Below, piece by piece: positions 1-37,626 of a DNA stretch of 64,000 bases. Below the pieces are notes generated by a model. That model saw only the letters and a list, made by a program, of their open reading frames with translations. It had not been told where the DNA came from and did not search any database. The DNA comes from Polyangiaceae bacterium (GTDB lineage: Bacteria > Myxococcota_A > Polyangia > Polyangiales > Polyangiaceae): contig JABSRN010000003.1 of assembly GCA_013214025.1 (NCBI GenBank), positions 62,001-126,000 of the forward strand, in the 5' to 3' direction. The translations under genes were made by a program, and so were the position numbers. Position 1 is the stretch's first letter. The number at the start of each line of letters is the position of its first letter.

Positions 1-2
1 CG

Positions 3-974
3 TTGCGTAGCGCTCCCACATTTGGCGGTGCCTCTCGTATCTTGGAACGTTACCAGCGCCTCGTGCATACTGGTGCCTCCATGAGTATAGAGATACGGGG
101 CGACCAACTACACTTCTTGCTGCGACCGGGTAATGCGGGCGAGGTCTCTTCTACCCTCGTAGATTTTTTTGTAGCCGCCTGGACGCGAGTGACGCGACAA
201 CTCTTTGAAGAGCCGGTGACGTGGAATCAAGTTCGCTTGCAGCGCCCCGCACCGACCGACCCATCCGAGCACCGCCGTTTTTTTGGAGGCCCCGTCAGTT
301 TCGGTCAGACTCAAGACGAAGTGAGCACTGACGCGAGCTGGGCAGAGCGACCCGTGGTGGCGCGTGGTTCTCACTTCAGCCCAGCGGACCCCTCGGAGCG
401 GTCCGCTGCAGGCAGCCCACCGAATGACCCAAGCTTGACTGACCCCAGTGGGGCCAATCAAGCCGTCGCCAGTCCGACTGGCGACACGCAAGTCGTTAGC
501 AGCCCAGCTGCTAGCCGTCAGAATTCTTGGGGAGTCAGTTCTGACGACAACCAAACCAAACAAAATAGGGGGGATGACGTAATGACAGGGAGGGGAACAG
601 AGCAATGGTTCGCAGAAGAGGTCAGGTCGACCATATCGAAGGAACTCTCGGGCGGTAATCCGTGCGCGGGTAACATCGCGGGTCGTGTAGGAGTGAGTGA
701 ACGAACTCTTCGTCGTAGGCTGCAGGCCGCCGGCACGAGTTATCAGACACTCTTGGACGAGCGACGATACGACGCCGCGTTGCGCTACTTGCGCGACGAC
801 GGTTGCAGTTTGCTGGAGGTCGGCTTTCTGCTTGGGTTCTCGGACTCAAGCGGTTTCGCAAGAGCCTGCAAGCGGTGGACGGGCAAGACGCCCGTTGAAC
901 TGCGTCGTCAGACTCGCGCGAAACAAAGGGAGACCACGGCCTCAGTGGACTTGCCGTCCAGTCCTGGAATGTAA
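3..974 (+). CDS. AraC-family transcriptional regulator, 5' end cut by window edge
   Basis: DNA-binding regulator with a C-terminal AraC-type double helix-turn-helix. The first HTH lies near residues 220-240 (NIAGRVGVSERTLRRRL). The second is near 270-302 and ends in the family-typical GFSDSSGFARACKRWTGKTP. Residues 1-122 resemble the end of the arabinose-binding-type N-terminal domain (SEHRRFFGGPVSFG). The frame is open to the window edge, so the true start lies outside. Residues about 123-198 are an unusually long Ser/Pro/Asp-rich linker encoded by a block of inverted repeats (382-546). An in-frame ATG at 582, preceded by AGGGGGG at 567-573, could start a shorter HTH-only product. Regulated genes are unknown. 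Family call is secure; the linker interpretation is inference. Confidence 0.85.
   Translation: MRSAPTFGGASRILERYQRLVHTGASMSIEIRGDQLHFLLRPGNAGEVSSTLVDFFVAAWTRVTRQLFEEPVTWNQVRLQRPAPTDPSEHRRFFGGPVSFGQTQDEVSTDASWAERPVVARGSHFSPADPSERSAAGSPPNDPSLTDPSGANQAVASPTGDTQVVSSPAASRQNSWGVSSDDNQTKQNRGDDVMTGRGTEQWFAEEVRSTISKELSGGNPCAGNIAGRVGVSERTLRRRLQAAGTSYQTLLDERRYDAALRYLRDDGCSLLEVGFLLGFSDSSGFARACKRWTGKTPVELRRQTRAKQRETTASVDLPSSPGM
382..546 (+). repeat. block of five consecutive hairpins inside the AraC gene linker
   Basis: Seen directly: five adjoining inverted repeats. 382-390/400-408 (9 bp); 433-438/458-463 with inner CCCC/GGGG at 443-453; 465-474/476-485 (10 bp, GTCGCCAGTC/GACTGGCGAC); 495-503/507-515 (9 pairs including one wobble, CCA loop); 516-523/539-546 (8 bp). 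The block is 165 bp, a multiple of three, and codes for low-complexity linker residues. It resembles an in-frame palindromic insertion, but no second copy was found in the window. Confidence 0.6.
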
Positions 975-35842: not shown

Positions 35843-37186
35843 GTGCCCGCTTTGCCCCCCACCCGTCCCCCCACGCCACACCACGGGTTGGCGGTCGTTT
35901 CGGTCGCACTCGCCTGTTGCTTGGGCAGCGTCAGTCACGCGGGGGAGAGTCCTGCTGCGTCAGCCGACAAAATCACCGCGCGGGAAGCGGCGACCGAGGG
36001 TATTCGGCTGTATCGCGCTGGCCAGTTCCGCGCGGCCCTGGAACAGCTGGAACGCGCGCAGAAACACTACCAAGCGCCAGTTCACCACCTGTACATCGCG
36101 CGATCTCAAAAGCAGATCGGACAGTGGGTCGAAAGCTTTGAAAGCTATCAGGTTCTGCTCCGTTCTCCCCCGCAGGTTGATGCGCCAGCCCCCGTCGTCA
36201 ACGCCTTTCGGGATGGCAAGACTGAGCTCGAAGCCCTGAAGCTCGTGTTGCCGAGCATTCGGCTGCAGTTCAGCCCGCGCGATGCCGCCGTATCTGTGGC
36301 CATCGACGGAGTGGAGATCCCCGCGGATGTTGTCGGCACGAAGCGGGCGATCAACCCCGGTGCTCACTCTGTGCGAGTCACGGCGCCGGGTTACCAAGTC
36401 GCTGAGCAGTCGCTGATGATTGGTTCCGGAGAGAGCCAAACTCTTAGTTTGGTGCTGACGCCCGCCGTGGGGCCAAGCGCGGTGTCTCGGCATTCTGCAC
36501 CCCCGGTAGATCCGGAGACGAACCATCACGAAGACTACGGATTCTTGTTTGGGCTACGTCTGCACGGCGTCCTACCCGGTGGTGAAGTTTATCAAGACCT
36601 GCCCATGGGGGATTTTTTCCAAGCGGGCGCAGGCTTCGAGTTTCGCGCCGGGTTCCGCTTCATGCGTTATCTCACAGGCGTCGCGTACACCGGCGTCGCG
36701 GGATTGGGCGATGGCAGTCAAATCAACCATCAGCCCGCCTGGAGTGACGATTCGGTGGAGATCGGAGCGGTCTGGAGTGGACTGGGTGTGGTGTTCAGTA
36801 CTCCCCGGGACGAGTGGGGTGGTTTCGGCGAATTAGGCATGGCGAGTCGCTCCGTGTCGCTGAAGTTGGATGATGGTGCCGGATGCCGGGTCGACGTTTC
36901 GGGAACGGCAACCGATCTCCGTATCGGCGGGGGCGCACACTTGCCTATCAGCAAATCCCTACGGCTTACCCCTTACATGCTTTTGAGCTTGGGAGGTTTC
37001 AAGTCGCTGTCCGACGATAGCGATTGCGATTCGCCGTTTCGGCAGGGTGACAGCTCCGTCGAGAAGCTGCTGGGCGGTATCGATTCCAAGATCCAGGCGG
37101 ACGGATCGATCCCGTCAGATGATCAGAGTGGGCATCTTTTGTTTCTGTTCGGTCTGGGCGGAGAATATCTTTTCGGCGATTTCTGA
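35843..37186 (+). CDS. TPR/PEGA-domain envelope protein with barrel-like C-terminus
   Basis: 447 aa. Signal peptide (1-32), then tetratricopeptide-like helices (AATEGIRLYRAGQFRAALEQLERAQ, HHLYIARSQKQIGQWVESFE), a PEGA-like beta domain (about 140-215: VSVAIDGVEIP, GAHSVRVTAPGY) and an aromatic, strand-rich C-terminus of about 220 residues ending LGGEYLFGDF, consistent with an outer-membrane barrel. Start GTG at 35843. Function unknown; the architecture is common in Myxococcota. Convergent with the small lipoprotein at 37327, separated by a large inverted repeat. Confidence 0.75.
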   Translation: MPALPPTRPPTPHHGLAVVSVALACCLGSVSHAGESPAASADKITAREAATEGIRLYRAGQFRAALEQLERAQKHYQAPVHHLYIARSQKQIGQWVESFESYQVLLRSPPQVDAPAPVVNAFRDGKTELEALKLVLPSIRLQFSPRDAAVSVAIDGVEIPADVVGTKRAINPGAHSVRVTAPGYQVAEQSLMIGSGESQTLSLVLTPAVGPSAVSRHSAPPVDPETNHHEDYGFLFGLRLHGVLPGGEVYQDLPMGDFFQAGAGFEFRAGFRFMRYLTGVAYTGVAGLGDGSQINHQPAWSDDSVEIGAVWSGLGVVFSTPRDEWGGFGELGMASRSVSLKLDDGAGCRVDVSGTATDLRIGGGAHLPISKSLRLTPYMLLSLGGFKSLSDDSDCDSPFRQGDSSVEKLLGGIDSKIQADGSIPSDDQSGHLLFLFGLGGEYLFGDF

Positions 37187-37286
37187 TCGCGGTACGAGCA
37201 GGTACGCGAGAGCTCTCAGCGGATTCGCGAAAGCCTCAGCGGATTTCGACGAGAAGCCAGGCTCACTGCGCGGTATCGACCCGCGT

Positions 37287-37362
37287 GGCACTCCCCCGGG
37301 CGGCGGCAACGCTAGCCGCTATCTCGCTAACGGCCAGCGTTGCCGCCGCCCGGGGGAGTGCC
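37287..37362. repeat. perfect 27-bp inverted repeat with 22-nt loop
   Basis: Left arm 37287-37313 begins GGCACTCCCCCGGGCGG; right arm 37336-37362 is its exact reverse complement. The stop of the minus-strand lipoprotein gene (37327-37329) lies in the loop, and the right arm codes for its last residues (about DSGTPPGGGN). Very stable GC-rich stem; probable bidirectional terminator for the convergent pair, or a former mobile or palindromic element. Confidence 0.65.
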
Positions 37363-37626
37363 GCTGTCTTCTACCTGGCTGGCTCCCGTGTCGCTACGCG
37401 CGCTACCCCCGCTACCCCCGCTGCTAGTGCCGCCGCTGCTGGTGCCGCCGGTACTCGTACCACTAGCGGCTGTGCCGCCTGTGCCTCCACCGTCGGTAGT
37501 GCGCGGCGACGCATCTCCGTCGAGGAAACTATATTGGCTGTAGTCATTGGTGCACGCGCCCAACGCCAGGGCGACCCAGCTGAGAGCGACCACACCGAAC
37601 CCGATTCGAACGCTAATTCGTTTCAT
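37327..37626 (-). CDS. small Gly/Ser/Thr-rich lipoprotein
   Basis: 99 aa. Lipoprotein signal to LALGAC (Cys25). From residue 45 the protein is almost all Gly, Ser and Thr (TGGTAASGTSTGGTSSGG). No domain is recognisable; a short surface tail. Its ATG overlaps the stop of the upstream TPR gene by one base (TGATG), so it is translationally coupled. The C-terminal codons lie inside the large inverted repeat. Confidence 0.65.
   Translation of the reverse strand: MKRISVRIGFGVVALSWVALALGACTNDYSQYSFLDGDASPRTTDGGGTGGTAASGTSTGGTSSGGTSSGGSGGSARSDTGASQVEDSGTPPGGGNAGR

Follow-up and report, generated by a model that had tools for sequence, protein, structure and literature searches.

A single-copy row of coding hairpins inserted in frame between the two domains of an AraC-type regulator of a Polyangiaceae bacterium, next to a possible internal start

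In-frame palindromic insertions into protein-coding genes are known chiefly from Rickettsia and its relatives, where they have been described as selfish repeats. The palindromic elements of Rickettsia (RPEs) measure about 150-170 bp and lie in frame in tolerated, unstructured protein segments (PMC10969869; PMC6649704). Together with the protein-coding palindromes of Wolbachia and Methanocaldococcus they represent dispersed families with a shared sequence. Coding palindromes of another type are the palindromic amphipathic repeat coding elements (PARCELs; DUF285/TIGR02167), tracts of short palindromes within one gene that encode amphipathic tandem repeats, each 25 residues long, in membrane proteins. 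The translated mitochondrial genes of nematomorphs contain hairpin-forming inverted repeats that are long (mean 43 bp), perfect and distributed genome-wide, encode conserved residues and possibly originate from template switching. A single event of replication template switching can produce perfect stems, as has been documented (PMC8794818), and the mechanism has been invoked for coding palindromes (PMC6649704). At the level of translation, N-terminal proteoform pairs such as those of CheA-S, SsaQ-S and InfB depend on an in-frame internal ATG with a strong Shine-Dalgarno (SD) sequence that gives rise to a shorter product, and in Salmonella the SD context is stronger at alternative internal starts than at annotated starts (PMC11005335).

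We have analyzed a stretch of 64,000 nt (hereafter, the window) of a Polyangiaceae bacterium (GenBank assembly GCA_013214025.1, contig JABSRN010000003.1, positions 62,001 to 126,000), in which positions 382-546 (the block) carry five near-perfect inverted repeats inside an intact gene for an AraC-type regulator (Table 1). Counted from an assumed GTG start, this gene has 425 codons within a stop-free open frame of 429 codons and begins 303 nt before the window (G000:C108:61697 = window -303; locus L039, 1697-2974). A Pfam scan assigns it an N-terminal Arabinose_bd domain (PF12625) and an HTH_18 domain (PF12833), and the top matches among solved structures, located over the HTH domain, are the AraC-type regulators PDB 5chh (AraC family regulator) and VirS (8rcx). 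The gene is preceded by a SprT/DUF2786-like ORF upstream of the window (L039, 1-885) and followed by an EF-hand-type gene at about 1352-2005, both named by eye. Between the EF-hand-type gene and one that is ECF-sigma-like (gene names again by eye), positions 2018-2122 hold two further long hairpins with 13 and 11 perfect pairs; the first is terminator-like and the second lies where the sigma-like gene begins.

Table 1. Position of the regulator gene, its interdomain hairpins and the candidate internal start in the window
Feature	Position	Strand	Details
AraC-type regulator gene	1-974	+	PF12625, E 7.9e-22; PF12833, E 7.1e-20
Inserted interdomain linker, predicted disordered	369-539	+	Residues 225-281, 57 residues, pLDDT < 50
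Hairpin 1	382-408		Arms 13 nt, 12/13 pairs
Hairpin 2	433-463		Arms 15 nt, 13/15 pairs
Hairpin 3	465-485		Arms 10 nt, 10/10 pairs, 1-nt centre
Hairpin 4	495-515		8/10 Watson-Crick pairs and 1 G.U
Hairpin 5	516-546		9/10 Watson-Crick pairs and 1 G.U, 11-nt loop
Unstructured A/C-rich leader ACAACCAAACCAAACAAAAT	547-566	+	Unpaired probability 0.63-0.80 at 550-569
SD-like AGGGGGG	567-573	+	8 nt before ATG
Possible internal start ATG (Met296) and predicted 130-residue HTH-only product	582-974	+	SD/accessibility
HTH_18 DNA-binding domain	675-911	+	Pfam PF12833, residues 225-303 of the window ORF

The five hairpins are confirmed, yet they do not all abut as the original prediction had it: hairpins 2-5 are closely packed, whereas hairpin 1 is set off by 24 nt (successive spacers of 24, 1, 9 and 0 nt). 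Their sequences are all mutually different, and in four of the five repeats a single central nucleotide separates the arms. Watson-Crick pairs make up 52 of the 58 pairs. The six others comprise one C.C, two G.U pairs on the mRNA strand and three A.C pairs, which correspond to G.U on the opposite strand; both mismatches of hairpin 2 are of the C.A type and thus G.U on the minus strand. The RNA of the block is predicted to fold at -75 kcal/mol, beyond chance (z = -4.3 versus dinucleotide shuffles). The local-hairpin energy reaches z values of -4.7 on the plus and -5.9 on the minus strand when synonymous codons are permuted within the block (0/1000 permutations as good), and of -3.9 and -4.5 against synonymous codons drawn at genome-like usage (0/1000 as strong). 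The block thus folds 4-6 standard deviations more strongly than the encoded protein demands. Inverted 6-mer pairs are in excess (15 versus 4.9 expected, 1/1000), while direct k-mer pairs in the block are not. A comparison of the block with Rfam gave no match above the gathering score, and a search for a promoter inside it found none.

To place the block within its genome, inverted repeats with a score of 7 or more and a loop of 3-15 nt, clustered within 172 nt, were counted in a sample of 2,092,438 bases, i.e., 36% of the own genome (assembly of 5.77 Mb in 184 contigs). The block, with five repeats and a summed score of 41, is the sole cluster of more than three repeats; 29 other clusters have three and none has four. 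Ten local codon shuffles of the sample (about 21 Mb) peak at four repeats with scores of at most 30, so that the shuffled sequence of equal composition proposed as a refutation falls short of the block. Control windows of the same sample with z of -4 or lower were likewise absent, both among 121 linker-like and among 342 random coding windows. In absolute RNA stability alone, the block lies in the tail of the genome sample but is not unique; what sets it apart is how densely near-perfect inverted repeats are packed in it.

The next-best clusters that were inspected correspond to terminators, a tRNA region and a tandem protein repeat (KKAPVR), none of them an insert comparable to the block. At L076 780-1110 (G000:C97:100780-101110), mirrored repeats composed of the palindromes ACTCCCCAAGGGAGT and TGCTGCAAAGCAGC in both orientations directly follow a tRNA-like stretch and a terminator-like hairpin, with the appearance of a REP/BIME-like array. 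The KKAPVR repeat at L095 15038-17696 (G000:C141:95038-97696) is tandem, histone-H1-like and partly masked with N, and continues into an ORF with, by eye, a helicase-like C-terminal part. Elsewhere in the window, a nearly perfect 35-bp inverted repeat with a 6-nt loop at 37270-37370 forms the window's strongest fold (z -7.1 on the minus strand for 37180-37460) and overlaps a small lipoprotein-like ORF (37327-37626, minus strand) at its 3' end.

The block had been proposed to cover, in frame, an extra stretch between the N-terminal domain and the HTH, and the comparison with homologues bears this out. We measured the interdomain distance between matched domains in 50 distinct AraC-type homologues from the family and the order; all 50 lack the hairpin-coding linker, being shorter by 44-62 residues between the two domains, with a median and a mode of 57. 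Even the best of these homologues share only 25-33% identity over the whole protein, and searches of the family (108 genomes), the order (183 genomes) and the genome contigs brought up no closer one. An AlphaFold2 model, built on an alignment of 33 sequences, points to the same segment: both domains are predicted with confidence, and the one low-confidence interdomain stretch coincides with the linker given in Table 1. The linker is rich in Ser, Pro, Asp, Asn, Gln and Ala, and its third codon positions have the same GC content (0.59) as those of the N-terminal part. Judging from the homologue comparison and the predicted structure, the extra segment is an in-frame insertion of about 57 codons, with endpoints that cannot be fixed exactly because the rest of the linker is poorly conserved. 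The homologues' own linkers show no hairpin excess, with a mean z of about 0 and none of the 50 at -3 or lower, versus -5.1 and -6.4 for the block in the same test. We also considered a frameshifted remnant of a normal linker and rejected it: the other plus-strand frames hold stops and there is no linker-like helix motif.

With respect to the known coding palindromes, the block resembles the elements of Rickettsia, Wolbachia and Methanocaldococcus in being some 150 bp of palindromic DNA in frame within an unstructured part (pLDDT < 50, between two confident domains) of an ordinary protein, and in being absent from all 50 homologues. Those elements, however, are dispersed families with shared sequence, and repetition is the defining feature of RPEs (PMC10969869), whereas the block is single-copy and consists of five separate, unrelated short hairpins rather than a single element-wide palindrome. 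The genome search that the original prediction called for returned no second copy in the own genome, neither by DNA (best other match 20 nt) nor by peptide, only matches of 25-31 nt of chance strength in 182 other genomes of the order, and none in plasmids; the short matches at L198, L199, L002 and L005 were chance-like on inspection. A dispersed element was rejected on these grounds, and membership of a Rickettsia-like family is not supported. PARCELs are similar in that short coding palindromes are gathered in one gene, but the host of the block is a cytoplasmic regulator; this candidate was discarded, as the Pfam scan gives AraC-type domains only and no DUF285, and TRF finds no tandem repeat. 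Nor does a tandem-repeat origin hold. A degenerate repeat of 30 nt or 10 residues was suggested by eye (SLTDPSGANQ / AVASPTGDTQ / VVSSPAASRQ), yet TRF reports none, direct k-mers are not in excess and autocorrelation at lags of 15 and 30 is weak. The palindromes of nematomorph mitochondria share with the block the formation of hairpins within translated genes, but those of the block are short, confined to one gene and located in a non-conserved linker. The block is best read as a single-copy coding palindromic insertion outside the Rickettsia family.

Downstream of the hairpins, the gene contains an exceptional start-like site. ATG 582 is in frame, 36 nt past the end of the block, so that the densest hairpin cluster of the genome sample and its most start-like internal codon are direct neighbours. 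The region upstream of this ATG forms a duplex of -9.9 kcal/mol with the anti-SD, the strongest SD among the in-frame start codons of the gene, and its accessibility is in the 99th percentile within the gene. Among about 15,380 internal in-frame ATG/GTG codons sampled in the genome, 433 have an SD of -8.5 or lower, and ATG 582 alone (occurring twice in the set because two loci overlap) combines this with an accessibility of at least 0.6, both thresholds having been picked after the site was seen. The linker zones of the 50 homologues contain 165 ATG/GTG codons, of which the eight with the strongest SD are all closed (accessibility 0.26-0.36). The alternative raised in the original prediction, in which a structured mRNA segment precedes an internal SD and ATG, is strengthened by this combination of SD and open leader. 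Accessibility of the leader amounts to 0.60 with the real block, 0.49 +/- 0.06 with synonymously shuffled blocks (9/200 as high) and 0.45 with the block deleted; the gain due to the hairpins is of marginal significance. When longer stretches are folded, accessibility drops (0.48 if 400 nt of upstream sequence are included). Judged by 90 single-candidate starts with a mean of -2.9 kcal/mol, the own genome seems to make weak use of the SD, and the strong SD at ATG 582 is therefore no proof of its use. Like the internal starts of CheA-S, SsaQ-S and InfB, ATG 582 offers an in-frame start with an initiation context, but it is a prediction, and its leader is placed where a row of inserted hairpins ends.

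We tentatively favor, with a probability of about 0.4, the interpretation that the in-frame hairpin insert provides the leader for an internal start, from which a free HTH protein is made. In this view, an AraC-type regulator gene acquired about 57 extra codons, in frame, where its sensor-like domain joins the HTH. At the protein level the insert would be tolerated as a disordered linker. At the mRNA level, five self-contained hairpins are followed by the unstructured A/C-rich leader, the strong SD and the in-frame ATG; by folding on themselves, the hairpins would leave the leader free for 30S binding. The gene may thereby produce a second, shorter protein, i.e., next to the full-length regulator a free, 130-residue HTH protein, which would bind DNA without the sensor domain and might take part in regulation.

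Among the competing interpretations, one holds that the inverted repeats came together by chance in a disordered, GC-rich linker and were noticed because many windows were read. The comparable absolute hairpin stability found elsewhere in the genome would agree with this, but five repeats are never reached in the ten-fold shuffles of 2.09 Mb and neither the 463 control windows nor the 1000 synonymous shuffles contain an equivalent, which makes chance highly improbable. A mobile palindrome of the Rickettsia kind, inserted in frame, is very unlikely as well: its size of about 150-170 bp, its palindromic nature and its tolerated, unstructured position would suit the block, yet a second copy is missing from the own genome, the 182 other genomes of the order and plasmids, five different small palindromes replace one spanning element, and no target-site duplication was noted. 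Unlikely, too, is a structured mRNA that slows ribosomes at the domain boundary and allows the N-terminal domain to fold before the HTH, or another RNA role on either strand. In favor of it, the hairpins occupy the very junction of two well-folded domains and go beyond what coding demands; against this, 50 homologues with the same two domains manage without such structure, the imperfect pairs have no strand bias and Rfam gives no match.

The main rival, a distinct possibility, holds that replication template switching built a neutral linker through successive short reverse-complement copies, with hairpins and start-like site being without function. The excess of inverted but not direct short repeats, the single central nucleotide in most of the repeats, their differing sequences and a disordered protein segment in which extra residues are tolerated are all in line with it. 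The same applies to the pairing deviations, which show no preference for the mRNA strand (two G.U versus three A.C), so that the mRNA fold bears no visible sign of selection; maintenance of an mRNA structure is accordingly not favored and palindromes at the DNA level fit, in numbers too small to decide. A neutral linker, however, demands that five independent events fell within the same 165 nt and none elsewhere in the 2.09 Mb, and thus a local cause; it leaves the neighbouring start-like site unexplained, and its intermediate steps appear in no ancestral or sister sequence. As to origin alone, the hairpins probably arose by local inverted duplication through template switching.

Returning to the preferred interpretation of a leader for an internal start, its most elaborate form holds that the row of five hairpins doubles as a protein linker and as a structured leader insulating an internal ribosome-binding site, and thus converts a one-product gene into a two-product gene with a sensor-controlled and a sensor-free HTH; in this form the proposal is somewhat doubtful. 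The occurrence of a single-copy multi-hairpin insert in a free-living lineage with a large genome would indicate that no dispersed repeat family is needed for rows of coding hairpins to arise. Use of the internal start, if it takes place, would provide the regulator gene with a concrete one-step route to a second, sensor-free product.
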